From the NCBI RefSeq assembly GCF_001577525.1, contig NZ_CP013015.1, positions 388,632 through 452,631 on the forward strand: 64,000 nt of DNA, written 5' to 3'. Positions 8,227 to 41,654 of the stretch are shown piece after piece. A program made the translations under genes and the position numbers. This DNA comes from Candidatus Desulfofervidus auxilii. Its GTDB lineage: Bacteria > Desulfobacterota > Desulfofervidia > Desulfofervidales > Desulfofervidaceae. The notes beneath the pieces were generated by a model. The model had not been told where the DNA came from, did not search any database, and saw only the letters and a list, made by a program, of their open reading frames with translations. Each line of letters opens with the position of its first letter. Within the stretch, counting starts at the first letter, position 1.

Positions 8227-9495
8227 ATGGCTATCCCCATTAGTGAAAGAGATATAAGAGTAAAGGCCCAAAAAGGCCTTTTTGACCTCCCATTCTATTT
8301 AATTTTAATTCATCTTTTCTTTGACTACGGCCGACCCCAAAGCTTTTTCCCCATTATTGGTGCCCTTCATCCAGGATATATATTACATACCTTACTCTTT
8401 TTGTGCCTCTTTTTAAAAGGTAAACTTTTAAATTTTAAAAACATCCAGACAAAATGCTTTTTAGGTTTGCTTTTATTGATGATGCTTCATGGCCCAATTG
8501 CGGTAAACAATTACTGGGCTTATCAAGTATGGAGAACCATTACTTTATATTTCATTGTTTATCTAAGTATTATAAGTTTTGTTGATTCGTTTCCTAAAAT
8601 TGAAAAATACATCAATATATGGATAGTGATTAATTTACTTGGGGCGATTATTGGTATAAAAAATGGTGGTAAAATTCCAAATTCTGGTTTTATGGGTGAT
8701 GAAAATGACTTTGCCTTAGTGATGAATATGGCCATTCCCTTTGCCTATTTTATGTTTTTGGAAACAAATTCTACAAAAAAGAAAATACTTTATCTTTCTG
8801 CTTGTTGCATTTTTATTGCCGCCAATGTGGCCTCCTTTTCTCGTGGAGGATTTGTCGGCTTAGTGCCTGTCATCCTTTATTGCTGGTATAAAACACCCAA
8901 AAAAGTTTTATCTACTGTAATTGTGGCCATTATGATAAGTATTCTCTATTTCAGTGCCTCTTCAAAATACTGGCAAGAAGTAAAAAGCATAAAAGAAGAA
9001 AATATTCAAAAAGGCACTGGAGAAGAAAGAATTTATCAATGGAAAATAGGTTGGAATATGTTTTTAGACAATCCTCTCATAGGAGTTGGTCAAGGGAATT
9101 TCCCCTTTAGATTTAGGGAATACGAAATAGCAGCTGGATTCTATGAAGGTTTACATGGACGTTCCAGAGCTGGGAGAGCAGCTCATTCTATCTATTTTAC
9201 TCTAATCCCAGAATTAGGGATCCTAGGTATCTTACTGTTTGGGGGTATGATATACTTTTCTTACAAAGATTTAAAATGGATATTAAAAATAGAAAAAGAT
9301 TTTCTTTTTAAACAGCAATCTGATAAAACAATTCAGAAATTACATAAAATAAGATTTATCATTTTTGGCATTACAGGTGCCATGCTTGGCTATTTAATAT
9401 CTGGTATATTCCTTTCTGTCCTCTATTATCCCCATTTTTGGCTATTGATTGCTCTTTGCGTAGCTTTAAGAAATATAGTGCAAAATCGGGTATGA
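8227..9495 (+). CDS. O-antigen ligase / Wzy-type polymerase family membrane protein
   Basis: 422 residues with about ten hydrophobic segments. The large periplasmic loop carries the family pattern GVGQGNFPFRF followed by GRAAHSIYFTLIPELGILG (Wzy_C/WaaL region with the conserved His). Such proteins either polymerise O-units or attach glycan to lipid A or protein in the periplasm; sequence alone does not separate these roles. The N-terminal stretch LFFDYGRPQSFFPIIG is shared by many EPS-locus members. Ten bases separate it from the radical SAM gene. Confidence 0.82.
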   Translation: MAIPISERDIRVKAQKGLFDLPFYLILIHLFFDYGRPQSFFPIIGALHPGYILHTLLFLCLFLKGKLLNFKNIQTKCFLGLLLLMMLHGPIAVNNYWAYQVWRTITLYFIVYLSIISFVDSFPKIEKYINIWIVINLLGAIIGIKNGGKIPNSGFMGDENDFALVMNMAIPFAYFMFLETNSTKKKILYLSACCIFIAANVASFSRGGFVGLVPVILYCWYKTPKKVLSTVIVAIMISILYFSASSKYWQEVKSIKEENIQKGTGEERIYQWKIGWNMFLDNPLIGVGQGNFPFRFREYEIAAGFYEGLHGRSRAGRAAHSIYFTLIPELGILGILLFGGMIYFSYKDLKWILKIEKDFLFKQQSDKTIQKLHKIRFIIFGITGAMLGYLISGIFLSVLYYPHFWLLIALCVALRNIVQNRV

Positions 9496-9505
9496 AAAAT
9501 TAAAA

Positions 9506-10576
9506 ATGATATCTAAATTTTTGACAAAATTATCACGTGCAAGGGATCAAGGTGGTATCATTAATTATTATTGGTCAAGACTACTTCAAGAAGTGGCGAA
9601 AAGAACAAAATCATCTTTTGGCAAGCCCACAGATGTTATAGTCCTTCTAACAAATCGTTGTAATGCCAGATGCTTACACTGTCATAGTTGGAAGCTCGAT
9701 TTGAGAATTACTGAATTAACCACTAATGAATGGAAGAAAACACTTAAAGAATTGCGCAAATGGCTTGGCCCCATCTTTTTATCCATTACTGGTGGTGAAA
9801 CTTTATTAAGAAATGACTCTGTAGAAATTGCAGAATATGCAGCTCAATTAGGCTTTTGGATAGAGTTTTTAACCAATGGCTATTTTATGGATAATAAAAA
9901 GGCTGTTCAATTAGTTAAGAGTGGTGTTAAAAGAATCAAAATTTCTTTAGATGGAAGTAAGTCTGAAATACATGATTTAATTAGAGGTAGAAGAGGATTT
10001 TTTGAAAAAGCCACAAAAGCATTAAAAACACTAGCAAAAGAAAAGCATAAAACAGGTAAAAAAATACAAATCTGGGCAAAAACAACCATAATGAGTCATA
10101 ATGTCAAAGACCTTGCTAATATAGTACTTTTAGTTCAAAAATTAGGGATAGATGGTGTTGAGTTTCAGGCCCTTGAACCTGTTTATTATTCAGAACAATT
10201 AAATGACCCTAATTGGTATAAAGATAATCCCCTTTGGATAGAGGACAAGTTAACTATGATTGATTATCTTGAGAGATTAAAAACACTAAAAAAAGAGGGA
10301 TATCCCATCCTAAACTCAATTGAAAACATAGAATTAATGAAACAATATTTCTTAAACCCTGATAAACTTGCATTTAAAATCCATAGCCATACGTATAAAA
10401 AGAAAAGACCAGAATGCACATCTTGGGTAGCTGGTCTCCAAATTATGCCAGATGGTGGCATGAAAATGTGTCATCGAATGGAACCATTTGCCAACGTCAA
10501 ACAAGGCAATTTAAAAAAACTATGGAGAACAAGAAAAAGGTGCTGGAAAAGTGGCTGTGTATTAAATAGCAGTTAA
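9506..10576 (+). CDS. Radical SAM protein with SPASM-like C-terminus
   Basis: 356 residues with the radical SAM cluster motif CNARCLHC (Cys52, Cys56, Cys59), which binds a [4Fe-4S] cluster and SAM. The glycine-rich TGGETLLR motif follows. The C-terminal region, EC at about 306 then MPDGGMKMCHR and a final GCVLNSS, has spaced cysteines as in SPASM-type auxiliary-cluster domains. Members of this group modify peptides, sugars or small molecules; the substrate cannot be inferred. It is nearly contiguous with a flavin reductase-like gene, and both lie in the polysaccharide locus. Confidence 0.82.
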   Translation: MISKFLTKLSRARDQGGIINYYWSRLLQEVAKRTKSSFGKPTDVIVLLTNRCNARCLHCHSWKLDLRITELTTNEWKKTLKELRKWLGPIFLSITGGETLLRNDSVEIAEYAAQLGFWIEFLTNGYFMDNKKAVQLVKSGVKRIKISLDGSKSEIHDLIRGRRGFFEKATKALKTLAKEKHKTGKKIQIWAKTTIMSHNVKDLANIVLLVQKLGIDGVEFQALEPVYYSEQLNDPNWYKDNPLWIEDKLTMIDYLERLKTLKKEGYPILNSIENIELMKQYFLNPDKLAFKIHSHTYKKKRPECTSWVAGLQIMPDGGMKMCHRMEPFANVKQGNLKKLWRTRKRCWKSGCVLNSS

Positions 10577-28897: not shown

Positions 28898-29815
28898 TTA
28901 CAAAAATGCTTCCACTCTGTTTCGGCCCTTTTCTTTTGCTTTATATAAAGCCTTATCTGATGCCTTGATTAAGGCTTGTTTATCCTCAATTTCAGCATGA
29001 GGGATGGCTGCTACTCCAAAACTCATGGTAATAGAAATATGCCCAGTGGGAATCTTAAAGGGGTGTTCAGCAACAGCCTTTCTCAATCTTTCTGCCACCT
29101 TAATTGCCCTAGACAGTTCAGTGTGTGGCAAAATAATAGCAAACTCCTCCCCCCCATATCGAGCAGGGGTATCAATCTCCTTTCGTGTTGACCCCCTGAG
29201 CATAGAACCTATCCCTTTAAGGATAATATCACCTGCTGCATGTCCATAGGTATCGTTAATCTTTTTGAAAAAATCTATATCCATCAAGATGTTGGATAAT
29301 GGAAGTTTATATCTTTTAGCCCGAGCAAACTCTTCGGCCAGTTTGTCTTGATAATATCGGTGATTGTACAAACCAGTCAGTCCATCCCTATCAGCCATTT
29401 TGCTCAGCTTTTTTGTCTTTTCTAACAATTCATCATGAAGTGTTTTTAAACGCAGTTGGGTATTGACCCGCGCAATTAGTTCCCCAGCATCAAAGGGCTT
29501 TGTAATGTAATCCACAGCCCCTAATTCTAGCCCTTTAACTTTATCTACTGCCTCTGTCTTGGAGCTGAGCATAATCACTGGAACGTCAGAAGTAGTTTGG
29601 AACTGCTTTAATCTTTGAAGGGTTTCATACCCATCCAAATTAGGCATAACTACATCAAGCAAGATTAAATCAGGCTTCACCCTTTTTACCTCTTCCAGTC
29701 CTTTTAACCCATCAGGTGACCAAATTACATGAAATCCCTTTGGGTCAAGGATCTGACGGCAAAACTGGGCTATCAACTTACTATCATCTATGATTAGAAT
29801 AACGGGTTTTCGCAT
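28898..29815 (-). CDS. Response regulator with GGDEF domain (diguanylate cyclase)
   Basis: 305 residues. REC domain 1-120: ILIIDDSK start, LILLDVVMPNLDG with the phospho-Asp, PVIMLSSK and the conserved DYITKPF Lys. GGDEF domain from about 150: DRDGLTGLYNHRYYQ and RYGGEEFAIILP, an active-type GGEEF signature. It should make c-di-GMP when phosphorylated. An allosteric I-site RxxD is not obvious ahead of GGEEF. As the last gene of the chemotaxis operon it probably links sensory input to c-di-GMP output. It overlaps cheD by 32 bases. Confidence 0.92.
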   Translation of the reverse strand: MRKPVILIIDDSKLIAQFCRQILDPKGFHVIWSPDGLKGLEEVKRVKPDLILLDVVMPNLDGYETLQRLKQFQTTSDVPVIMLSSKTEAVDKVKGLELGAVDYITKPFDAGELIARVNTQLRLKTLHDELLEKTKKLSKMADRDGLTGLYNHRYYQDKLAEEFARAKRYKLPLSNILMDIDFFKKINDTYGHAAGDIILKGIGSMLRGSTRKEIDTPARYGGEEFAIILPHTELSRAIKVAERLRKAVAEHPFKIPTGHISITMSFGVAAIPHAEIEDKQALIKASDKALYKAKEKGRNRVEAFL

Positions 29816-30374
29816 TTTTCTTTATTCTGAGTAATCTTTCTGTATATCGTGCTTCTACATATTTAAATTCAGTGTATTGTTGAGGCAATAATTTTTTCAC
29901 GAAGACCTTACCTGTATCACTAAAAAAATACAATTTACGCCCAAAATCCCCCCCTACATCTTTACTAATGATAGGGATTTGCTCCATTTTAAGAAAATGA
30001 TTTATAAATTTGATGTTAAATTGAGGAATGTTATCATGAGAAAGCCGATAATTTAATAATCGTCCGCCCCCAAAAACCTTGGCTTTTAAAAGTTGCCTCT
30101 GTCCTCCTGATTTCATAATTTCAGCTATAAGGAGCTCCATAGCATATAAACCATAACGCCCCATCTCCGTGGTTAAAATCTCGTGAGATTTAAGGGAAGC
30201 AGGGAGCATAAAGTGATTAACACCTCCCACTGCATGAACAGGGTCATATAAACAAGTACAAATACAAGAGCCCACTATGGTTGAAATAATTTCTCCTTGA
30301 GTAGAAATATAGTATTCTCCTGCTTCTATAACAATTACCGGCCTTTGATATTTTGAACTAAAGCATTTATACAT
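29784..30374 (-). CDS. cheD: Chemoreceptor glutamine deamidase CheD
   Basis: 196 residues, slightly longer than usual CheD. The catalytic Cys lies in TIVGSCICTCLYDP (Cys37) and the His in GGVNHFMLP (His54); KAKVFGGGRLL follows. CheD deamidates glutamines of chemoreceptors and may interact with CheC, which is not seen here. The gene follows cheR by four bases. Confidence 0.92.
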   Translation of the reverse strand: MYKCFSSKYQRPVIVIEAGEYYISTQGEIISTIVGSCICTCLYDPVHAVGGVNHFMLPASLKSHEILTTEMGRYGLYAMELLIAEIMKSGGQRQLLKAKVFGGGRLLNYRLSHDNIPQFNIKFINHFLKMEQIPIISKDVGGDFGRKLYFFSDTGKVFVKKLLPQQYTEFKYVEARYTERLLRIKKNAKTRYSNHR

Positions 30375-30378
30375 TTTT

Positions 30379-31233
30379 TTATGTTTCTAAAGGTTTCTTT
30401 CGGTAAATACTAGGTGCAAATAATAAAAAAGGAGCATTATTAAAAGCTAACAGAGATTCCGCTTGGCCTAAAAAGAGAAAACCATCTTCAGAGAGGGTCT
30501 TATAAAAACCCTGGATTACTCTCTGCTTTACCTCTAAATCAAGATAAATAATCACATTTCGGCAAAAAATAATATCAAATTTCCTTTCAAAAATAAAAGA
30601 ATCTGTAGATAAATTGAAATATTTAAATACAATTAGTTTCTTAAGGATATCTTTAACCTTGAATAAATCTTGCCCTTTAACCTTTTGAAAATATCTCTTA
30701 CCATAGCTAGAAGGTAGAGAGGCTATTTCCTTTGATGTATAAATGCCTGACTTGGCCTTATTTAGGGCTTTCATATCTATATCAGTAGCTAATATTTCAA
30801 TCTCCCACTGGGGATAAATGCTAAAGTAATCATTTGCTACCATAGCCAGAGAGTAAGCCTCCTCACCACTGGAACAACCTGCACTCCATATATAGAGCTT
30901 AGGTATTTTTTGCTTTGCTATTGCTTTTTTCAAAAAATAGGGGAATACCTTATTGGTTAAGTATTCAAAGTGCTCTTTTTCTCTAAAAAATTGAGTTTTC
31001 CCGGTAGTGATTAAACTTATCATGTGCATCATTTCTTTTTGGCCTGCAGGGTGCTTAGTTAGATAATTATAGTATTCCTCAAAGGAGTTAAGGCGAAGGG
31101 AAGTTAGCCGTTTTCTGAGCCGAGAGACTAAAAATGGTTTTTTATATTCAGCAAGACAAATGCCTGTTTGCTGATAAATAAAGGTTTTTAAAAGCTTAAA
31201 CTCAGTATCTGTAAATTCAAGACCATAGTTCAT
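30379..31233 (-). CDS. cheR: Chemotaxis protein methyltransferase CheR
   Basis: 284 residues: an N-terminal helical domain (FKLLKTFIYQQTGICL), then a SAM-binding domain with IWSAGCSSGEEAYSLAM, ILATDIDMKALNKAK, YFNLS and FDIIFCRNVIIYLD. It methylates glutamates of the chemoreceptor. No cheB is visible in the operon, so demethylation would depend on a gene elsewhere. It overlaps cheW by four bases. Confidence 0.95.
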   Translation of the reverse strand: MNYGLEFTDTEFKLLKTFIYQQTGICLAEYKKPFLVSRLRKRLTSLRLNSFEEYYNYLTKHPAGQKEMMHMISLITTGKTQFFREKEHFEYLTNKVFPYFLKKAIAKQKIPKLYIWSAGCSSGEEAYSLAMVANDYFSIYPQWEIEILATDIDMKALNKAKSGIYTSKEIASLPSSYGKRYFQKVKGQDLFKVKDILKKLIVFKYFNLSTDSFIFERKFDIIFCRNVIIYLDLEVKQRVIQGFYKTLSEDGFLFLGQAESLLAFNNAPFLLFAPSIYRKKPLET

Positions 31234-31712
31234 TTTATACTATCTATTTCTTCTAATTCTTCTATACTTAAAATTTTATCTAGGTCTAATAAAATAATCA
31301 AATCGTCATTCTTTTTACCAAAGGCTTTAATAAAATCTGTTCTGACCTTAGGACTTAAAGGTGGACTAAGCTGGAGATTGGCTTGTTCTAAGTATATTAC
31401 ATCAATTACATCATCTACTAATACCCCCATGACCCTTCCTAAGATTTCTACTACTACAATTACACCTTTAGTATCGTCTTTTCTGGGTTCCAAATCAAAT
31501 TTAGCTCTTAAGTCAAAAATAGGAAGGATTGTCCCCCGAAGATTGATTATACCTTTTACTACAGGTGAAAGCCGGGGTATACGGGTAGCTCTCTGGAATC
31601 TGGTTACCTCCTTTACTTTAAGTGCGTTCACCCCATATACCTCATTTGCCAGATAAAAAGTAAGGTAATAGCCTTCTACCTGCTCTGCTGTCTTTTCCTT
31701 ATTTTCTTCCAT
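31230..31712 (-). CDS. cheW: Chemotaxis coupling protein CheW
   Basis: 160 residues, a single CheW domain: YYLTFYLANEVYGVNALKVKEVTR, IPRLSPVVKGIINLRGTILPIFDLR and GVLVDDVIDVIYL, as in typical adaptors coupling receptors to CheA. It lies two bases downstream of the receptor gene. Confidence 0.95.
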   Translation of the reverse strand: MEENKEKTAEQVEGYYLTFYLANEVYGVNALKVKEVTRFQRATRIPRLSPVVKGIINLRGTILPIFDLRAKFDLEPRKDDTKGVIVVVEILGRVMGVLVDDVIDVIYLEQANLQLSPPLSPKVRTDFIKAFGKKNDDLIILLDLDKILSIEELEEIDSIK

Positions 31713-31714
31713 TT

Positions 31715-33949
31715 TTAAAATTCCTCAAATTTATCTTCTAAATCTAAGTCAGGAGGACCACTTCCCATTTCTTCTTTTGGTTCAGCCTTTTTTACTAACT
31801 CTTCAGGCAAAGACCGGGGCTGAGTTTCTTTAGTGGACATTTCGGAGGTAATAAATCCTCGAGTCAACTCTAATAAAACTTCTGCTTCATCTGCTAGTTT
31901 TTCACTTGCCGAGGCAAGTTCTTCCACAAAGGCAGCATTTTGTTGTATTACCTTATTTATCTCCATCACCGTTTTATTTATTTGTTCAATTCCTTCTGTT
32001 TGTTGTCCACTTGCTGAAGTAATTTCAGCTATGACATCTGATACTTTGGTAATATGACCAATAATTTTTTGTAAATTCTCAGATGTAGAGTTAACAAAGC
32101 TTATTCCTTCACCCACCTTGACTGCACTTTCTTCAATTAGGGCCTGAATATCCTTGGCTGCCTCTGTACTTCTGATAGCTAAATCCTTTATTTCTGCAGC
32201 AATAACAGCAAATCCCTTCCCTTGTTCTCCTGCCCTTGCAGCTTCCACCGCGGCGTTTAAAGAAAGAAGTTTGGTCTGGAAGGTAATATCGTTGACTAAA
32301 TTGACAATCTCTGTAATCCGATTACTTGTTTCCTTAATACGTTCCATAGAAGATATGGCATCCCCAGCTACTTTACCTCCTTCTTTAGCTGCATCTACGG
32401 CCCACTTTGCCAATTCATTAACTTTAGCGGTATTTTTTGCATTTTGATTTATGATAGCTGTCATTTCTTGAATAGACGCACTCACTTCCTCCACTGAGAC
32501 TGCTTGTTTTTGTGTCCGCTCGGAAAGGTCTTGATTGTTGGCCGAGATCTCAGATGCCCTTTCAGCTACAGCTAAGGCTTCTTCCTTGGCTTGTTGAATA
32601 ATATTAGACATATTATCTAGCATTTGGTTAACGTGTTGAGCTAGCCTATCCATCATATCTTCTTTACCTTCTATTTCTGCCCTTCTTGTTAAGTCCCCTT
32701 TAGCTATCTTACCCAAGAGCTCAACCAATTTCTCCACTCGTTTTTCCAAATAAAGCCTTTGCGCTTCTTCTCTAGCAGCCGCTTCCTTTATAGTCTTTTC
32801 AGCCTCTACCTCCATAGTAATATCTCTGATAAAATGGAACCCACCCCATATCTTACCTGTAGAATCTTTCAGAGGTGCCCCACTAGTGATTACAGGAACT
32901 TCTTTGCCATCCATTTGTCTTACTATACCCCTTTTGCCTATAATAGTCTCCCCGCTTTGAACAGCCTTTTTAAAAAAACAATCGGTTTCGCAGAAATCGC
33001 TTTTGATTATTTCATAGCATTTCTTTTTTCCTTCTACTTCTGACTTACTGTATCCTGTCAATTTCTCTAAGGCTTTATTCATATAAGTAACAGTAAAATT
33101 GGGGTCTGTAATAAAAAAAGGTTCCGAGATACTAAATTTTAGACTATTAGCATATTCAATCTGATCCTTGATCTTTTTAGTCATGATATTGAAATTCTTA
33201 ATCAAAATACCAATAGAGTCTTCTCTATCGGTAGTCATAGAAACAGAGAAATCGCCTTTAGCCACCCGGGCTGTCTTTTCAGCTAGTTCTCTAGTAGGTT
33301 TAGAAATCCATTTCACGGAAAAAAAGGAACCAAGCAAAATAAGAGCCAAAATACCCATAACACCAATTAACAAATTCTGATTTCTTAAACTGTGGATGGT
33401 ATTATAAATACCAGCAATAGACTGTTTTACCACCAAAGCACCTAGGACCTTTCTTGAACTGCCATGACAATGATAACATCCCTTTTCATTTAAAATGGGC
33501 AAAAGTACTGTAAGACCAGGTTGTTTACCTATCTTTTCCTCAAAGGCCATAGATGGCGCATGTCCTGTTTCAAGCATTTTTTCTAACTGTTTTATGGCCT
33601 TTTCATTAAAAATAAATTCAGAAAGCGAAAGGTTAATGGCCTTTGGCTGACTGGCATAGACAATGTTTTTATTAAAGTCGCAAATATAGGCTTCTACCCC
33701 TTCCATACTCTCTTTTATATACATTAGTTGCTTCTCTACCATTTCACTATTTCCTCTAGCCATAGGCCTCTTAATACTGGCATAAGTGAGCCTAGCGATA
33801 TCTAAACCAAATTCATGTGCTTTTTCAAATAGGGTCTTCTCCTGACTATGGATGTTCATATAGATTGTTACACCCATGATCAAGGTTACTAACACGATCA
33901 AGGCTAATAGAATTTTCACCCTTAAATATTTTCTCACTAAATGGAACAT
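31715..33949 (-). CDS. Methyl-accepting chemotaxis protein with periplasmic CxxCH heme motif and PAS domain
   Basis: About 744 residues; the ATG at 33949 has GGAGG six bases upstream. Transmembrane segment at 10-30; periplasmic domain about 31-190 with CYHCH at 158-162, a c-type heme binding motif, as in DUF3365/Tll0287-like heme sensor domains; second membrane segment (LLIGVMGILALILLG); HAMP; PAS (ITDPNFTVTYMNKALEKLTG) at about 280-390 with a CETDCFFKK stretch; a second HAMP-like linker; then the MCP signalling domain with hairpin EAARAGEQGKGFAVIAAEIK. It probably senses redox state or a gas/electron acceptor. The C-terminal tail shows no canonical CheR-binding NWETF. Confidence 0.92.
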   Translation of the reverse strand: MFHLVRKYLRVKILLALIVLVTLIMGVTIYMNIHSQEKTLFEKAHEFGLDIARLTYASIKRPMARGNSEMVEKQLMYIKESMEGVEAYICDFNKNIVYASQPKAINLSLSEFIFNEKAIKQLEKMLETGHAPSMAFEEKIGKQPGLTVLLPILNEKGCYHCHGSSRKVLGALVVKQSIAGIYNTIHSLRNQNLLIGVMGILALILLGSFFSVKWISKPTRELAEKTARVAKGDFSVSMTTDREDSIGILIKNFNIMTKKIKDQIEYANSLKFSISEPFFITDPNFTVTYMNKALEKLTGYSKSEVEGKKKCYEIIKSDFCETDCFFKKAVQSGETIIGKRGIVRQMDGKEVPVITSGAPLKDSTGKIWGGFHFIRDITMEVEAEKTIKEAAAREEAQRLYLEKRVEKLVELLGKIAKGDLTRRAEIEGKEDMMDRLAQHVNQMLDNMSNIIQQAKEEALAVAERASEISANNQDLSERTQKQAVSVEEVSASIQEMTAIINQNAKNTAKVNELAKWAVDAAKEGGKVAGDAISSMERIKETSNRITEIVNLVNDITFQTKLLSLNAAVEAARAGEQGKGFAVIAAEIKDLAIRSTEAAKDIQALIEESAVKVGEGISFVNSTSENLQKIIGHITKVSDVIAEITSASGQQTEGIEQINKTVMEINKVIQQNAAFVEELASASEKLADEAEVLLELTRGFITSEMSTKETQPRSLPEELVKKAEPKEEMGSGPPDLDLEDKFEEF

Positions 33950-33960
33950 AACCAACCTCC

Positions 33961-34407
33961 TTAATGGGCACCCCCATAAAGCATGGGTTTATATTCAAAG
34001 GCCTCTATTCTTTCTGCTACATGACAAGAAGCACAATCTTTAAGAGTAGGTTTTTTAATATCTTCAATAGATTGAGATTCTATATGTTCACTCCCAGGAC
34101 CATGACAGACCTCACATCCAGGAAATTTTAGTTCAGGTGTTTTTTCCACACTGACAAAACCGCTTGGTTTCCCATAGCCAGTAGTATGACACTGAAAACA
34201 CCTTTGGAATTCCTCTTTTGTTAATCCTTTTTTTAGTCTAACTATTTTTTCATAAGACCTTGCCTTCTTTGCATAGCGCATAAAGTTTTGATATTCAAAT
34301 TCATGGCATTCTTTACATGCTTCAGAACCCACATACATAGGCTCGGCTGAGACTGAAAAAGGAAAGCTAAGAATAATAAAAAACATTATTATCACAAAAT
34401 TTCTCAT
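33961..34407 (-). CDS. Tetraheme c-type cytochrome
   Basis: 148 residues with signal peptide (MRNFVIIMFFIILSFPFSVSA) and four CxxCH sites: CKECH, CFQCH, CEVCH, CASCH. This is cytochrome c554-like spacing, with extra histidines that may be distal ligands. Periplasmic. It lies between cheA and the heme receptor gene, so it could pass electrons to, or be sampled by, the sensor domain (inference). GGAGG precedes the start. Confidence 0.92.
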   Translation of the reverse strand: MRNFVIIMFFIILSFPFSVSAEPMYVGSEACKECHEFEYQNFMRYAKKARSYEKIVRLKKGLTKEEFQRCFQCHTTGYGKPSGFVSVEKTPELKFPGCEVCHGPGSEHIESQSIEDIKKPTLKDCASCHVAERIEAFEYKPMLYGGAH

Positions 34408-34416
34408 AATAACCTC

Positions 34417-36498
34417 CTAGCTAAAGGCTAATTCTTCAAGTCCTGCAATATCTATAACTAATGAGATAGAACCATCTCCCAAAACAGTAGCACCTGCTAT
34501 GCCCTTAATGTTCCGAAAATTTTTTTCCAGACTTTTTATCACTACTCTTTGTTCTCCTAATATCTCATCAATGACCAATCCAAATTTTTTACTCCCTTTA
34601 AGGATGGCTACTAATTGCGGTTGGGAAATATCCTTCCTGAGGTTAAAGACCTTATCAAGCCTGACCAAAGGTAAAAACTCTCCTCTCACATTCACTAATT
34701 CTTCACGTTCTTCAACACTTTTTAAATGACGAGGATATGGTTTAAAAAATTCCACAATAAAATCCATAGGAATAGTAAATATCTGCCCATCAGTTTTTAC
34801 CATAGTCCCATCAATGATGGCTAAGGTAAGGGGTAATTCAATAACAAAGGCTGCGCCCTTTCCTGCTTCTGAAAAGACTTTTATTCTACCACCTGCCTTA
34901 GTAATATTGTGTTTGACCACATCTAGGCCCACTCCTCTACCTGAAACCTCTGTAACTTCCTTGGCTGTTGACATATAAGGGTGAAATATTAGTTCATATA
35001 TCTCTTCATCAGAAAGGGTGGTTCCATTCTTGATAAGACCTTGCTCCAGTGCTTTTTGTAAAATAGCTTCCTTGTCAAGACCTCTTCCATCATCCTTAAT
35101 CTCAATATAAATTTTACCCTCTTTTTGATAGCCTTTAAGCCAAATAGTTCCTTCACTTGGTTTTCCAAGACGAGTCCTTTCCTGAGGTAACTCTATCCCA
35201 TGGTCTACTGCATTTCTTACTAAGTGTTTTAGGGGATCACTAATAAATTCAATCATTTCTTTGTCAAGCTCTGTATCTGCTCCTGATACCACTACCCGAA
35301 TGCGTTTTTTTTGCTCATAGGCCAGATCACGTATCAAGCGTTGAAGGCGATAAAAAGTCCCCTCTAATGGGAACATTCGCATTCTCATTACATGCTCTTC
35401 CAATTGTTGACATATTTTATGAATATCTCCTAATGCTACTTCAAGTTTTCTCCTAACAGATGACCCTATTTTACTCACCAATTCATCCATTTGGGTCAGG
35501 GCAATAGTCATTTCTTCAACAAGGTCTAAAACTTTATCCACTTTTTCAAGATTTATGCGAATAGTGGAACGACGGTGGACAACCCTTGCCTTTTTCTGAT
35601 ATTCTACTACCTTTTCTACTTCTGATGGAGGTACTATTCCTTTTTCAACTAAAACTTCTCCAACTTTTTTTGTCCCTTTTTCCTTTATCACAGTATGAAT
35701 GTCCTTTTCAGAAACCGCTCCTTCTTCCAACAGTAATTCCCCAAGAAGCTTATCTGCATCCTTCAAGTTGATCCCGTCTTTGAATTCCTTGGTAACATCT
35801 TCAATTTGGATATCGTTTTCGTCTTTCACAAAAATAAAAATATCCTCTATTTTAGAAAGGGGTTCGCGGGTCTTAAACACTAGTTTCCAAGAAATATATA
35901 GCTTATACATATCTATTTTATCAAATTCAGGTAGCTGAGATATATCAGGTATAACCTTTATTATCTCACCCCATTCATCTAACTCTAGTAATAACATCAA
36001 TGGGTCTTGCCCTTTATTAAATAAATCCTCTCTGAATTTCATAGAAATTTTAAAAAAAGAATCCATTGACCTTTTTGGTTCTAAGAAGGCCTCTTTAGTC
36101 GGTTCTTCAGGGGTCAGTCCCAGGAAACGTTTCAGTTTTGCTTGCATTTCTGAAATTTCTTCTGACTGGCATTCAGGTTTGCCTGCACTGATATTATCCT
36201 GCATTGTTTTCAGAAAGTCTACTGCTTCTAAAAGAAGGGAGATTAAGTTTTTGGTTACCGGGAGTTCCTTTTTACGAAGCCTGTCAAATACTTCCTCTAA
36301 GGCATGACTAAATTTGCTGGTATGCATAAATCCCATCATAGCCGATGCCCCTTTTAGACTATGGGCAGCCCGAAACATTTCTTGGAGGGGTTCAGAGGCT
36401 TGTGGGTTAGATTCTAAGGCAATCAATTGATTTTCTAAAATGGTTAATAATTCTTCTGCTTCGGCAAAATATGTATCTAGAAGTTCAGATTTTTCCAT
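34417..36498 (-). CDS. cheA: Chemotaxis histidine kinase CheA with unusual internal linker domain
   Basis: 693 residues: P1/Hpt domain with phospho-His46 in AAHSLKGASAMMG; a region of unclear type at about 150-240; then LLGELLLEEGAVSEKDI and VGEVLVEKGIVPPSEVEK at about 250-310, resembling the small helical domain found at the start of GspE/PilB ATPases; dimerisation; ATP-binding domain with LVRNAVDHGIE, DDGRGLD and GRGVGLDVV; and a C-terminal CheW-like domain. It should phosphorylate the CheY next door and perhaps the REC-GGDEF protein. Confidence 0.95.
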   Translation of the reverse strand: MEKSELLDTYFAEAEELLTILENQLIALESNPQASEPLQEMFRAAHSLKGASAMMGFMHTSKFSHALEEVFDRLRKKELPVTKNLISLLLEAVDFLKTMQDNISAGKPECQSEEISEMQAKLKRFLGLTPEEPTKEAFLEPKRSMDSFFKISMKFREDLFNKGQDPLMLLLELDEWGEIIKVIPDISQLPEFDKIDMYKLYISWKLVFKTREPLSKIEDIFIFVKDENDIQIEDVTKEFKDGINLKDADKLLGELLLEEGAVSEKDIHTVIKEKGTKKVGEVLVEKGIVPPSEVEKVVEYQKKARVVHRRSTIRINLEKVDKVLDLVEEMTIALTQMDELVSKIGSSVRRKLEVALGDIHKICQQLEEHVMRMRMFPLEGTFYRLQRLIRDLAYEQKKRIRVVVSGADTELDKEMIEFISDPLKHLVRNAVDHGIELPQERTRLGKPSEGTIWLKGYQKEGKIYIEIKDDGRGLDKEAILQKALEQGLIKNGTTLSDEEIYELIFHPYMSTAKEVTEVSGRGVGLDVVKHNITKAGGRIKVFSEAGKGAAFVIELPLTLAIIDGTMVKTDGQIFTIPMDFIVEFFKPYPRHLKSVEEREELVNVRGEFLPLVRLDKVFNLRKDISQPQLVAILKGSKKFGLVIDEILGEQRVVIKSLEKNFRNIKGIAGATVLGDGSISLVIDIAGLEELAFS

Positions 36499-36499
36499 T

Positions 36500-36880
36500 T
36501 TATCTTACAAACTTTTTTATTACCCAGAGTAATTGTTGCGGTTTAAAGGGTTTAACCAACCACCCTGCTGCCCCAGCTTTCCTTCCCTCCTGTTTTTTAG
36601 CCTCATCACGCTCACTAGTCAGGATTATGATAGGTGTATAGCAAAATGCTGTTTTTTTGACTTTCTTAACGAAGGTAATACCATCCATCTTGGGCATAAC
36701 AACATCCGAAATAATCAAAGATACGCGTGAACCTTCTCGCTTTAGACGATTTAGTTTTTTGAGTCCATCAAGTCCATCCTCCGCCTCAATTATATCATAG
36801 CCCGCTTTTTTCAAACAAAGACGAAGCGATGCCCTTAGTGTTGGAGAATCGTCAACAATAAGTATACGCTTAGAACCCAT
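36500..36880 (-). CDS. cheY: Response regulator CheY-like
   Basis: 126 residues, a single receiver domain: ILIVDDSPTLRASL, LIISDVVMPKMDG with the phospho-Asp, PIIILTSERD and GWLVKPFKPQQL. There is no output domain. It lies two bases before cheA and one base after the STAS gene. Confidence 0.93.
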   Translation of the reverse strand: MGSKRILIVDDSPTLRASLRLCLKKAGYDIIEAEDGLDGLKKLNRLKREGSRVSLIISDVVMPKMDGITFVKKVKKTAFCYTPIIILTSERDEAKKQEGRKAGAAGWLVKPFKPQQLLWVIKKFVR

Positions 36881-37177
36881 TTAGTTTAAATATCGGCTTA
36901 ATCCAGAAATTGTTAACATTTTTTCTAATGCAGGATGAAAATGGGCGATTTTAAACTTACGCTCTTTAGGAAGTGATTTTTTAAACGAAATTAACAGCTG
37001 GAGAGCAGCAGTATCCATACTTCTTACATCCCCAAAATCAAGAATAATTGCTTCTTTAGGAAAAAGTTCAGTTAAAATTTGATGAAAATCCTCTAAATCA
37101 TAAATATCAATCTCGCCAGAAAATTTATATACCCCTTCCTCTACATTGACATCAAACATTATTAATAAAAATAACAT
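36881..37177 (-). CDS. STAS-domain protein (anti-sigma-factor antagonist-like)
   Basis: 98 residues, or 92 from the second ATG (MFDVNVEEGVYKFSGEIDI), which looks more like the family start. IILDFGDVRSMDTAALQLLISF is the STAS core loop, with Thr at the position usually phosphorylated. It is first in the chemotaxis operon. Such stand-alone STAS proteins also occur in chemosensory and partner-switch clusters. Confidence 0.85.
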   Translation of the reverse strand: MLFLLIMFDVNVEEGVYKFSGEIDIYDLEDFHQILTELFPKEAIILDFGDVRSMDTAALQLLISFKKSLPKERKFKIAHFHPALEKMLTISGLSRYLN

Positions 37178-37305
37178 AAAATGTAAACATCGTCAATATA
37201 GCCAAAATTTACAAAATCCGCGATTGATTTTTGGAGAAGGATATTTTTAATAAGGAAATGAGAAAAAAATTAAGAAAGAACACCAGAATTATCCCCTACG
37301 AAGTA

Positions 37306-37326
37306 CCTGCCTGCCGTCAGGCAGGA
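37306..37326. repeat. GC-rich palindromic repeat
   Basis: CCTGCCTGCCGTCAGGCAGG-type perfect hairpin in AT-rich DNA just downstream of the transposase remnant. It belongs to the same family as those at 37988, 38111, 38300, 48691, 48830 and 49343. Confidence 0.8.
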
Positions 37327-37444
37327 ATGTTTTATGACAATTCCCTTAAATTAGGCAAAAAAACGCTCCTTTAAGACCCACTTAAGACACTCTTCTGCCT
37401 TAGAAAAAAATAATTGCACTGTTTTTTCAATATAACAAAACTAC

Positions 37445-38225
37445 CTATGAACTATCACAGCAAAATATCCATGTCTTATGGCGAATCTCTTTAAATATAG
37501 AATAGGCGTAGTTTCTCACTTTAAGAAAAATCTTCCTGCTATGATACACAATCCTGCCTGCGATGTTATATAACTTCCAGCGAATGGTCTTTATTTGATG
37601 CTTTTTATATTCTTTAGGCAAAATATTTAGCTGAAACATCCGAAAAAGATTATAGGCTAGGACCCCTATCCTAAAAAATACAGCATTTGCCTTAAAATAA
37701 GATGAAGGCATCCTTTCCATTGAAAATCCAATCTTTAGCTCCTTTATCCGATTTTCACTATATTCTCCCCTAGCATCATACCATTTGACTACTTCCTCTG
37801 ACTCAAAATCAAGGTTTGTTGCTATCACTTTATATCTTTCCTTTAAATCAATTTCTTCTTCACCAAATAGCCTTGGCTGATATGGTCTTCTTACCACAAT
37901 TAGCCTAAATGCCTGATTTGTCTTTTCCATACAATGGACTGTCTTGGCAATATGTCTATTTTCGTATGGCCTCCATTCATCTTCTTTCCTGCCTGTCCCC
38001 GCCTGCCTGCTGGCAGGGGCAGACAGGTTGCCTTTAGGCATCTGCCTTTCACACTGCTTTATAAACTCATGAAGAAACTCACCAAATAAAACTAAACCTG
38101 CTCTGGGAGTCCTGCCTGCCCTGTCTACCAACAGGCAGGCGTCAGGCAGGGATAATTTCGTAAGTCCTCTCTAAAACAAATGGCAAAACAGCTTGCTTTA
38201 CTTTAGATCTTTTTTGTTTTATCAT
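37445..38225 (-). pseudogene. IS1380-type transposase, internally deleted and invaded by palindromic repeats
   Basis: The N-terminus is readable from the ATG at 38225 (IKQKRSKVKQAVLPFVLERT), then interrupted by a GC-rich palindrome at 38111-38150 that brings a stop. The frame resumes LVLFGEFLHEFIKQC, is broken again by an in-frame palindrome at 37988-38028 (read as SAPASRQAGTG), and continues to the C-terminus (RLIVVRRPYQ, KVIATNL, VVKWYDARGEYSENRIKEL, MPSSYFKANAVFFRIGVLAYNLF), typical of the IS1380 group. The middle of the DDE domain is missing, so it is inactive. Confidence 0.8.
37988..38150. repeat. Two GC-rich palindromes inserted in the transposase remnant
   Basis: At 37988-38028 and 38111-38150, each built from CCTGCCTG and CAGGCAGG arms around short loops. 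The first keeps the transposase frame; the second ends it. Confidence 0.8.
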
Positions 38226-38227
38226 TG

Positions 38228-38376
38228 TTCTTACCCCGTGAGTGTGTTTTCACCTTTTAGGTGAAAGGTATTTTTTCAAAATCGCTTTATTATAGCACAC
38301 CTGCCTGTTCCCTGCCCGACGGCAGGCGGGGGCAGACAGGCTTGCGGGGTTTCTTGTAGGACAAACAAGGATTTTG
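38228..38376 (-). mobile_element. 5' end region of the IS1380-type element
   Basis: Upstream DNA of the transposase start: a short palindrome TTCACCTTTTAGGTGAA at about 38249, an AT-rich stretch, a GC-rich hairpin at 38300-38340 and CTTGCGGGGTTTCTTGTAGG near the outer end. The whole stretch recurs in opposite orientation at 48658-48820. Confidence 0.75.
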
Positions 38377-38462: not shown

Positions 38463-41400
38463 ATGTCTATCTTATTCAAAAAAATTTTTTTAATAGGTAT
38501 CATGGTAGCTGTCATTACAAGTATGTCTTTCTCATCCATAGCCGCTGTTAATTTTTTACCTTACTACAATGTATTAACTCAAGAAGGAAATAACTTAGTT
38601 TACCAAGTAAATGATGGTACTACAACTTACACTGAGACTTTTAGTGTGCTATCAGGTACTACTAATATTAATGGTATAACTGCTACAGTACTACAGGTTT
38701 CTAGGGAAGATGATCCCTCTCAATATACTTCTTATTTTTTTAGTAATAATGAGGAGGGTTTAGATTATCTTGGAATGACAGTTCGCCAGGAGCTTGGAGA
38801 AGGAAATTTTATAGAAAAGTCTTATATTTTTGATCCGCCTATTAGGTATCTCAATTCAGAAGTTTCTATCGGTGATAGTATCAACAGTTCAGGAAGAGTA
38901 ATATACACTTATACTGATTCTCAGGGCAGTAGACAGGAAGAATTGAGTTACACCAATACGGTGAACATAGAAGCTGCGGAATCTATTTATGTTCAAAGTG
39001 CAAGCTATAATACAATTAGAGTGAAGACAACTCTTACCATGTCAGATACTAGTAATACTGAAAATCAAACACAAACAAATGTTTCTAGTTATTGGTATGC
39101 TCCTTTTATTGGGATTGTCAAAAGTACAACTCAGCTTTCTGACGATCGACAAAAGATTAGAGAATTACTTACTTCTAATATATATGCTCCAGATATAGAA
39201 CCTAAAATATATGTCAATGATCAAAGGTGGGCAATAGTTGCAGGCGAGAACGAACCAATTTCTGCCATAATTGGACTTAATGCCTGGAATTTTGAGGGAA
39301 TTGTCGGAGACTGGTGGGTTGCGGCTGAAAGTGATGGGACTTGGTATTCTTATGTCTATCCTACTGGCTGGGAGGAAGGTATAAAGCCTGCTTATCAAGG
39401 CCCTTTCTTTAGTTTTTCAGAGTTTACTGTTTTTAATGCTAATCTACCACAAGGGCTTTATAATATTTATTTTGCAGTAGACACCAACCCTAATGGTGTC
39501 GTAGATTTTCCGATGTTATGGTATGATAGCGCTCAAGTCCATGTGGCAGGATCTTTATCTGAAGAGGTTCGCCAAGCAGCAAATATCCTTTTAAGTAAAC
39601 TTACGGTAAGCCCACCTTCTGAGGTCATGGTTACTGGTCCTGTAGAGCCAGGGACCGTGATGAGAGAAATTGTAGTTTCAGATGAGACGCCAGTTGAACT
39701 AACTGTGCCTGAAACCGCAGGAACTTATTATCTATTTTTTATTGATGATGAACCTCAAGCCAGGTATGAGCACCCGGTGCGATATGCTTGGGTGGAACTA
39801 AATACCGAGCAAATGCAATATGTCTCTGCTAATGAAAGGCCATTCATTGAAAGACCTGGCAAAGAACCAGGGCCTTTTGTACTTCAAGGAGCAGAGGTTA
39901 TTTCAGATGTGCATTTTATGTATATGACAGGAGAAGGTGGACAACTAGATATTGGAGAGTCTTTTGATGTAAGTGAAATGAATTTAAATAACAAGAAAGG
40001 TTTAAATAGTGTTAATAAATATTTACAATATCAAAAACAACATCAAAATGCTACTAATTCATCTAATGCTTGTAAAAAATTGGCTTTAGTCTTGGATGGT
40101 GGTGATCATTGGAAATGGAAGATGTTGGGTGGAGAAGGTATAGAGTTAAAGTGTAAAGCTTTAAATATAGCTAAAGCTTGTTATGATGATGCCGAGATGA
40201 TAGCAAAATGGCTAGCAGGGAATGGATTTGAAGTAACAAGGATTAGCAATTTTGGTGGAGTAGGGGTTCCCCCAGGTGTACCGAGTATAGACACTAGTGA
40301 TGATTTTTTGACTCAGCTAGAAAATTTAGCTATAAATTTTGAAAAAAATGGTTGCCGTAAAGATTGTTGTCATGAGCTTTTTATCTTCATGACTGGACAC
40401 GGTTCAAGCGAGAACACAGGCTTCATTATTTGTCCCAAACTTACTTATGGTATTATAGGAAAATCTGGTGAATGGAAACCTCTCAACCCTTGCAAGCTAA
40501 TACTTTACTATGATATTTTTGAAAAACTTAAACAAGTTCTCCCTTCCTGTGTAAAGGTAACGTTATTTATTGATGCATGTTATAGTGGTAAGGCTATTTT
40601 TTCTTCCTCATATTTAGAACAATTTTGTGAAGAGCACTGTGCATTAACTATAATAACTTCTACAGATAGGGAGCATAAAAGTCATGCCTTTAAGTCTGCA
40701 GCAAAAGCTTTTATTAATTTTGGTTTTGGATCTGTTGAACAAGCCAAATTAAAAAAAGATTGGGATGAAGATGGCAACGTCGGAGATATACGGGACAGAT
40801 GTACGGCTATGGAAAAATCTATCAAAGGTTTTAAAAAATATGGCACTCCTCAGTTTTACCACTGCCCAGAACCTACCTGCTGGTGTAGCCTTGATGGTCC
40901 AGATAAGGAACATCCTATGCCTACACCTCCTCAAGAGCCAGAGCCTGAACCACAGCCTCCTGCTGCTCCTTCGGAATTAAAGGCGAATAGGGCTGAGTGT
41001 AAGATTATTTTGAATTGGAAAGATAATTCAGATGATGAAGAGTATTTTCTAATTGAAAGGCTGGATGAAGACAAACTAAGTGTTGGAGAATGGAAAGTGA
41101 TAGGTATAGCTGACAGAAATAAAACTACTTATACTGACAATGACCCAGGTTTAGTACACAATAAGTTATATTGCTATAGAGTTAGAGCAGTAAAATGGGT
41201 TGAAGACTATCCAGGTGGAACTGGAGATTATGTACTTTCTGAAAGTGACATATCCTGCACTAGATATGAATGTCCATCTTTTTCCATTCCTACTATAAGC
41301 CTAAATAACCAAGAACAAGATCTACATCTACACTTTGAACACAGGGTATGTAGTATAACTGGCAGAGATATTGATCCATGTCCACACACTATTGGTACAT

Positions 41401-41654
41401 TTACTATTTCAAACTCTGGTGGAGGGACCCTTTCTTGGGAAATTCAGCAAGAATTAGCTAGTGGGTTATTTACATTTATTCCTGATCAAGAGACAGCTCC
41501 GACGACAGTAACGGTTCAGTATAACTGTAATGCTGAATATACTTATTTTGAGGAAAGTTTCCCTGTGATAGGTTATAATCTTGAGACAAACGAGGATGCT
41601 ACGAATAGTGGAGAGATAAATATCGTTATTCATGGCTCAATTGTTTATCAATAG
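38463..41654 (+). CDS. Secreted caspase-like (C14-type) cysteine peptidase with FN3 domain
   Basis: 1,063 residues; AAAGGAGG precedes the ATG. Signal peptide at 1-28 (cleavage near SSIAA). Residues 29-250 form a beta-rich domain of unknown family; 265-370 and 375-480 are further beta domains. A caspase-like domain lies at about 540-780: LALVLDGGD, CYDDAEMIAKWLAGNGFEV, FIFMTGHGSS (His646) and VTLFIDACYSG (Cys706), the expected His/Cys dyad. FN3 domain at about 845-945 (PAAPSELKANRAECKIILNW), then a C-terminal beta domain. It probably acts outside the cytoplasm; the target is unknown. Unusually rich in cysteine around 610-740. Confidence 0.82.
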   Translation: MSILFKKIFLIGIMVAVITSMSFSSIAAVNFLPYYNVLTQEGNNLVYQVNDGTTTYTETFSVLSGTTNINGITATVLQVSREDDPSQYTSYFFSNNEEGLDYLGMTVRQELGEGNFIEKSYIFDPPIRYLNSEVSIGDSINSSGRVIYTYTDSQGSRQEELSYTNTVNIEAAESIYVQSASYNTIRVKTTLTMSDTSNTENQTQTNVSSYWYAPFIGIVKSTTQLSDDRQKIRELLTSNIYAPDIEPKIYVNDQRWAIVAGENEPISAIIGLNAWNFEGIVGDWWVAAESDGTWYSYVYPTGWEEGIKPAYQGPFFSFSEFTVFNANLPQGLYNIYFAVDTNPNGVVDFPMLWYDSAQVHVAGSLSEEVRQAANILLSKLTVSPPSEVMVTGPVEPGTVMREIVVSDETPVELTVPETAGTYYLFFIDDEPQARYEHPVRYAWVELNTEQMQYVSANERPFIERPGKEPGPFVLQGAEVISDVHFMYMTGEGGQLDIGESFDVSEMNLNNKKGLNSVNKYLQYQKQHQNATNSSNACKKLALVLDGGDHWKWKMLGGEGIELKCKALNIAKACYDDAEMIAKWLAGNGFEVTRISNFGGVGVPPGVPSIDTSDDFLTQLENLAINFEKNGCRKDCCHELFIFMTGHGSSENTGFIICPKLTYGIIGKSGEWKPLNPCKLILYYDIFEKLKQVLPSCVKVTLFIDACYSGKAIFSSSYLEQFCEEHCALTIITSTDREHKSHAFKSAAKAFINFGFGSVEQAKLKKDWDEDGNVGDIRDRCTAMEKSIKGFKKYGTPQFYHCPEPTCWCSLDGPDKEHPMPTPPQEPEPEPQPPAAPSELKANRAECKIILNWKDNSDDEEYFLIERLDEDKLSVGEWKVIGIADRNKTTYTDNDPGLVHNKLYCYRVRAVKWVEDYPGGTGDYVLSESDISCTRYECPSFSIPTISLNNQEQDLHLHFEHRVCSITGRDIDPCPHTIGTFTISNSGGGTLSWEIQQELASGLFTFIPDQETAPTTVTVQYNCNAEYTYFEESFPVIGYNLETNEDATNSGEINIVIHGSIVYQ

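Follow-up and report, generated by a model that had tools for sequence, protein, structure and literature searches.

The closest described relatives of the receptor considered here are GSU0935 and GSU0582 of Geobacter (PDB 3b42 and 3b47; class 40H), methyl-accepting chemotaxis proteins (MCPs) in which a periplasmic single-heme c-type domain with a distal Met precedes the HAMP and MCP signalling domains; according to the accessible part of PMC8396549, Met60 of GSU0935 ligates the reduced heme and leaves the oxidised heme. DcrA of Desulfovibrio vulgaris, which we liken to them by its description, is likewise a periplasmic c-type heme chemoreceptor and is said, in the same part of PMC8396549, to sense oxygen or redox potential. 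What reduces and oxidises the hemes of such receptors, known since DcrA and GSU0935, within the cell has apparently not been established in the literature. Here we describe, in a 64,000-nucleotide stretch of the genome of Candidatus Desulfofervidus auxilii (contig NZ_CP013015.1; this whole stretch is called the window), a chemotaxis (che) operon in which the gene of a heme-type MCP directly follows that of a tetraheme periplasmic cytochrome, and present evidence that the two belong to a conserved pair in which the cytochrome may well act as the redox partner of the receptor.

The receptor resembles the sCache_heme family, which, as described in the accessible text of PMC12889525, carries a CxxCH within a Cache fold, is fused to MCPs and kinases and is common in Desulfobacterota and Nitrospirota, with cytochrome fusions only in Flavobacteria; that text makes no use of the terms tetraheme, multiheme, operon or gene cluster, and has neighborhood only in the title of a reference. 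It differs from GSU0935 and GSU0582 in its heme motif (CxHCHG vs. CQSCH) and in an additional cytoplasmic PAS domain, and no dedicated cytochrome is reported for the Geobacter proteins in the accessible parts of PMC8396549 and PMC2577667, the latter of which do not contain the word cytochrome. The cytochrome shares four hemes and its predicted fold with cytochrome c554 of Nitrosomonas europaea (1bvb) but is shorter, lacks a conserved His near residue 48, ends in His and is encoded next to a receptor gene. Further, the Esn network of Geobacter sulfurreducens likewise combines an MCP, CheW, CheA and a diguanylate cyclase, all required for growth on an electrode, but EsnA is a GAF-type MCP encoded outside the esnBC cluster and is described without a cytochrome partner (PMC5585712, accessible part). 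We did not find the cytochrome-sensor pair described in the open-access literature searched, including the accessible parts of PMC2577667, PMC5585712, PMC8235581, PMC7726332, PMC13401364, PMC5539420 and PMC10553843. Thus, as far as this literature goes, the receptor domain, the cytochrome fold and the Che system are already known, and the cytochrome partner is apparently new.

Results

Pairing of the cytochrome with heme sensors in two phyla

A first look over 79 relatives found the cytochrome beside the sensor repeatedly. Profiles of the cytochrome (17 rows) and of the sensor (21 rows) were used to search 394 genomes of the host phylum, each at least 85% complete, and 245 genomes of a second phylum, that of locus L005; 14 of the 57 and 1 of the 23 paired cytochromes reported below were themselves profile rows. 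The host-phylum results refer to the top matches, cytochromes of lower score having been checked where this is stated. Among the matches listed, host-phylum cytochromes separated by score into 57 with at least 162 bits, in 45 genomes, and others with at most 125 bits. For 54 of the 57, a heme sensor was present among the listed sensor matches 0 to 287 nucleotides downstream on the same strand, three pairs with over-extended sensor starts being resolved individually, and in the remaining three (L080, L130 and L131, with longer receptors) the sensor was directly downstream too. Every one of the 57 high-scoring cytochromes of the host phylum is therefore followed directly, on the same strand, by a heme sensor, while none of the eight lower-scoring cytochromes compared was paired. 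In the second phylum, 23 cytochromes scored at least 188 bits, the next scoring 122; a heme sensor follows all 23 and none of seven lower-scoring relatives. Taken together, 80 of 80 high-scoring cytochromes in the two phyla are paired, and G005, G010 and G046, which are below 85% completeness and outside the 394 genomes, also have the pair. The view of the cytochrome as a generic carrier of the c554 family was rejected on these counts, every high-scoring member being paired and the lower-scoring ones in 0/8 and 0/7 cases. This search for conserved pairs lends strong support to the proposal, made in the initial annotation, of a heme receptor paired with a dedicated multiheme cytochrome.

The output domains behind the sensor vary. 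In the host phylum 34 are MCPs and 19 kinases, with four left open, one of which (L075) is an MCP split by a frame change; in the second phylum there are 21 kinases and one MCP, with one left open. The host genome itself encodes two additional pairs, both of the kinase type with sigma-54 response regulators nearby. Kinase-type modules also lie beside large cytochrome genes, with 12, 12, 16 and 26 hemes in G003 (L081, G003:C18, type B as defined below) and 15 and 22 hemes in G287; to judge from this setting, the pair in G003 could be a regulator of an extracellular electron conduit.

Co-variation of cytochrome subtype and sensor motif

The paired cytochromes fall into two subtypes. Type A (43 in the host phylum and 23 in the second) has a conserved tail whose final residue is His, a single member of the 66 (L196) having GVH for GGAH, and type B (14) has no tail. 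The subtype is matched by the heme motif of the partner sensor, which is CxHCHG beside type A (66/66) and CxKCHG beside type B (14/14). The possibility that this H or K merely follows the output domain was dismissed, since kinase-type modules, five in the host phylum and 21 of the 23 modules in the second, combine HCHG with type A.

The motif was also surveyed over 117 sensors, namely 57 paired, 20 unpaired and 40 more distant ones, the last taken by rank and not at random; an unpaired sensor without a locus (G093:C55) was excluded. All 50 HCHG sensors were in genomes encoding type A, none of the 54 sensors in genomes without type A had HCHG, and 21 of 22 KCHG sensors were in genomes with type B, counts that come from related sequences and are not independent events.

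Trees were compared for 79 of the 80 pairs, the broken pair of G050 being omitted. Distances in the cytochrome and sensor trees were correlated with r = 0.87 over all 79 pairs, 0.78 over the 65 of type A and 0.66 over the 42 host-phylum pairs of type A, each value being reached by none of 5000 permutations; for type B (14 pairs) r was 0.50, reached by 2 of 5000. Where one genome encodes two type A modules, matched partners agreed better than swapped ones in G336 (0.76/0.65 vs. 0.24/0.11) and in G399 (0.93/0.74 vs. 0.21/0.19).

The receptor

Counted from its ATG, which we took as the start (the open reading frame tool instead gives a TTG at 33955), the MCP has 744 residues and a single CxxCH, CYHCH at residue 158, between two predicted membrane spans. 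A chance occurrence of this motif was discounted, at least one CxxCH arising in 8 of 20,000 shuffles. The two Cys and the His of the motif are invariant across 59 aligned sensors, and the receptor matches PF21563 and not PF11845, although 29 of the 59 match PF11845. In an AlphaFold2 model of the sensor domain (predicted local distance difference test score, pLDDT, 95), a short helix (134-140) with a long strand on either side carries the motif, and the closest folds are the extracellular domains of WalK, TlpA, PctD and CitA (Z 12 to 15). As modelled, the domain thus has a Cache fold, and its CxxCH sits within the insertion between strands 3 and 4, as in the sCache_heme family (DUF3365/Tll0287, PF11845/PF21563). 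The sensor profile matches the GSU0935 domain 3b42 (E 9.3e-13) and GSU0582 (1e-9), by homology to which CYHCH is expected to bind heme. A near-invariant Met ('PM..G'; 'RPMARG' in the window receptor) aligns with GSU0935 Met60 and is a candidate distal ligand; the sensor alignment has M63 in at least 90% of its 21 rows.

The cytochrome

The cytochrome of 148 residues has a putative signal peptide (by eye), the C-terminal residues GGAH and four heme motifs, CKECH, CFQCH, CEVCH and CASCH. Chance was again set aside, four such sites occurring in none of 20,000 shuffles of the protein. Its score and its four CxxCH place it in the cytochrome c554 family PF13435, and 56 of the 57 host-phylum cytochromes likewise have four; the exception, in G050, is broken by a stop. 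In that genome (L079 about 8950-10050, G050:C131) stop codons interrupt both members of the pair, perhaps because the module is decaying or because of a sequencing error.

The AlphaFold2 model of the cytochrome (pLDDT 87, predicted template modelling score 0.75) matched c554 (1bvb) with Z 10.0 and a root-mean-square deviation of 3.8 over 127 of 148 residues; 1ft6, the same protein, gave Z 9.8 and the next different protein Z 6.8. The cytochrome is accordingly modelled with a c554 fold, while against the Nitrosomonas c554 equivalog NF043010 it scored 33 bits, far below the cut-off of 400. Among His residues outside the CxxCH sites, H108 and the terminal H148 are the only ones conserved in type A, and near residue 48 there is Lys in 40 of 42 type A proteins, where the c554-like relatives at L070 and L096 have His; two of the hemes may therefore have Lys, another residue or no distal ligand. 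A role of the invariant C-terminal His as a docking tail became less likely with the model, the last residue of which (with a lower pLDDT, about 70) aligns with c554 residue 178, close to a heme ligand of that protein.

The che operon of the window

The pair belongs to an operon of nine genes on the minus strand (Table 1), all backed by Pfam assignments and separated, from the STAS gene down to the REC-GGDEF gene, by 0, 1, 9, 11, 2, -4, 4 and -32 nucleotides. By eye, strong ribosome-binding sequences precede the ATG of both the cytochrome and the MCP. The arrangement originally noted, with the tetraheme cytochrome between cheA and a CYHCH-bearing MCP, REC-GGDEF at the end and no cheB, holds at these coordinates, to which the STAS and CheD genes can be added.

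Table 1. Genes of the che operon and the putative heme-binding segment of its receptor (window positions).
Feature	Positions	Strand	Pfam support
STAS-domain protein, operon gene 1	36881-37177	minus	PF01740, 45.7 bits (cut-off 22.6)
CheY-like single-domain response regulator (REC)	36500-36880	minus	PF00072
CheA with Hpt, dimerisation, ATPase and CheW domains	34417-36498	minus	Pfam
Tetraheme periplasmic cytochrome, c554 family, type A	33961-34407	minus	PF13435, 65.8 bits (cut-off 20.8)
MCP with periplasmic sCache_heme-type domain, HAMP, cytoplasmic PAS and MCP signalling domain	31715-33949	minus	Pfam
MCP sensor domain, heme motif CYHCHGSSR	33383-33883	minus	PF21563, 30.3 bits (cut-off 27)
CheW	31230-31712	minus	PF01584, 115.4 bits
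CheR methyltransferase	30379-31233	minus	PF01739, PF03705
CheD deamidase	29784-30374	minus	PF03975
REC-GGDEF diguanylate cyclase, GGEEF motif intact	28898-29815	minus	PF00072, PF00990

The Che components CheA, CheW, MCP and CheR are all present. CheB methylesterase is a usual, not a universal, component of such systems; here there is no cheB in the operon, and PF01339 gave no match across the whole genome, a single contig of 2,540,211 bp. This genome encodes one MCP signalling domain, that of the operon, and two CheW domains, both also encoded in the operon, with two flagellin genes located outside it. Judged from gene content, the heme receptor is the only chemoreceptor of a probably flagellated cell.

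Residues 252-301 of CheA show a sub-threshold match to an MshE-type motif for binding of cyclic diguanylate (c-di-GMP; NF053729, 33.2 bits vs. a cut-off of 38), and the operon also encodes a diguanylate cyclase; this weak motif hints at c-di-GMP feedback. Upstream of the operon, the intergenic region at about 37300-38350 contains, by eye, a short, GC-rich, palindrome-like repeat that occurs several times, and positions 38463-41654 encode a secreted-looking protein of 1063 residues with a weak caspase-like Peptidase_C14 match, including DACYSG (20.1 bits vs. a cut-off of 21.4).

Two further loci of the host genome (G000:C1) were observed in passing. At L069 (8649-10688), the gene upstream of a type B pair encodes a Lon-type protease that has a response-regulator domain within its sequence. 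At L070 (4315-7943; about 2,189,300-2,192,950 of the contig), a third c554-like tetraheme cytochrome (124 bits) precedes a protein of 278 residues that matches no Pfam family and a kinase that has Cache-like domains, in which no CxxCH was found; this is possibly a different cytochrome-sensor arrangement.

Discussion

We favour, with moderate confidence, the interpretation that the cytochrome is a dedicated redox partner which determines whether the receptor heme is oxidised or reduced, the two genes together forming a redox-sensing module. The recurrence of the pair in two phyla suggests that the receptor reads electron flow via this partner. The exported tetraheme cytochrome would dock on the periplasmic sCache_heme domain, equilibrate with periplasmic carriers and give electrons to, or take them from, the single receptor heme, which would thereby track how reduced or oxidised these carriers are. 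As in GSU0935, the conserved Met would bind the iron of the reduced heme and be released from the oxidised heme, and this ligand switch would be relayed as a conformational change through HAMP to CheA. CheA in turn would phosphorylate the CheY-like protein, probably acting on the flagella, and perhaps also REC-GGDEF, with c-di-GMP and attachment as the outcome. Of the functions ascribed to the system in the initial annotation, a redox cue is plausible, and the REC-GGDEF gene points to a possible output through c-di-GMP, a flagellar output being equally likely.

Several observations weigh against this interpretation. The gene order of the window operon recurs in 15 operons, including that of the window, with STAS in 14 (the exception being L090), and the cytochrome is present in nine of them (the window, L071, L073, L075, L154, L156, L080, L130 and L131) and missing from six (L087, L088, L140, L141, L090 and L142); therefore the che system can exist without an adjacent cytochrome. 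Absence from orthologous operons had been named at the outset as grounds for giving up the pairing, and it is indeed found, but in five of the six the receptor motif differs, being CYNCHA in four operons of one genus and CYQCHD in one, and the sixth (L142, G383), with HCHG, is in a genome that encodes a type A cytochrome elsewhere. HCHG thus accompanies an adjacent cytochrome in 9/9 operons vs. 1/6 without one (Fisher's exact p = 0.002), and, because four of the cytochrome-less operons come from one genus, there were perhaps two independent losses only. In addition, the co-variation of H and K may reflect few independent changes, and the congruence of the trees could stem from shared inheritance. 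In G118, matched partners (0.41/0.42) agree no better than swapped ones (0.39/0.50), and the trees disagree on the window pair itself, the cytochrome being nearest to second-phylum cytochromes and the sensor to that of G009. Cytochromes with at least five hemes were found within 8 kb of 5 of 19 kinase modules and of none of the 38 MCP or unresolved modules. Finally, the 2026 preprint PMC12889525, in its accessible part, argues that signalling-fused sCache_heme domains sense nitric oxide (NO).

NO sensing is also the main rival explanation, one to which we assign a limited but real chance. The receptor heme would bind NO or another gas or small ligand, and the cytochrome would deliver, reduce or scavenge NO or keep the heme ferrous. 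One tested signalling-fused sCache_heme protein binds NO tightly (PMC12889525, accessible part), NO and carbon monoxide bind GSU0582 and GSU0935 (PMC8396549, accessible part), and up to two of the four cytochrome hemes may lack a His distal ligand, considering that H108 and H148 alone are conserved in type A. However, the conserved Met aligned with GSU0935 Met60 points to a ligand switch linked to redox state rather than to NO sensing, and a freely diffusing gas would make the matching of subtype and motif unnecessary. To our knowledge, NO sources are not obvious for sulfate reducers at hydrothermal vents. The one-to-one pairing and the co-variation would fit a protein-protein interface just as well as electron transfer, and the receptor could read the presence of the bound cytochrome or its maturation (apo vs. 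holo) with no electrons passing; TorC/TorS is reportedly a precedent for a sensor that reads an apo or holo cytochrome. We regard this as improbable, as the receptor's own CxxCH, superfluous for such a mechanism, is kept in every paired case examined. Least probable is an ordinary periplasmic carrier that is co-transcribed with the che genes and has no signalling role: six of the 15 orthologous operons do manage without it, but the same cytochrome always lies directly upstream of heme receptors, be it in che operons, stand-alone MCP pairs or kinase operons, and does so in two phyla.

Returning to the cytochrome as redox partner, we put forward, tentatively and as the less likely outcome, that cytochrome-coupled receptors constitute a previously undescribed class, in which a subtype-matched cytochrome feeds electrons into the heme of the receptor and the chemotactic or kinase response reports electron flow in place of a ligand. 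Given a dedicated, co-varying cytochrome, the redox hypothesis can be put to a direct test with two small proteins, against the reassignment of the signalling members to NO sensing in the preprint. Ca. Desulfofervidus auxilii (HotSeep-1) is a sulfate reducer that lives as the partner of methane-oxidising archaea and takes up their electrons. The likely cue in this organism would be electron supply, as hydrogen or as electrons from the archaeal partner, and under the same tentative proposal HotSeep-1 would steer and settle by archaeal electrons. Because the pair stands at the input of the sole chemosensory system in a bacterium with this way of life, it bears on how the partners of the consortium find each other and stay together.

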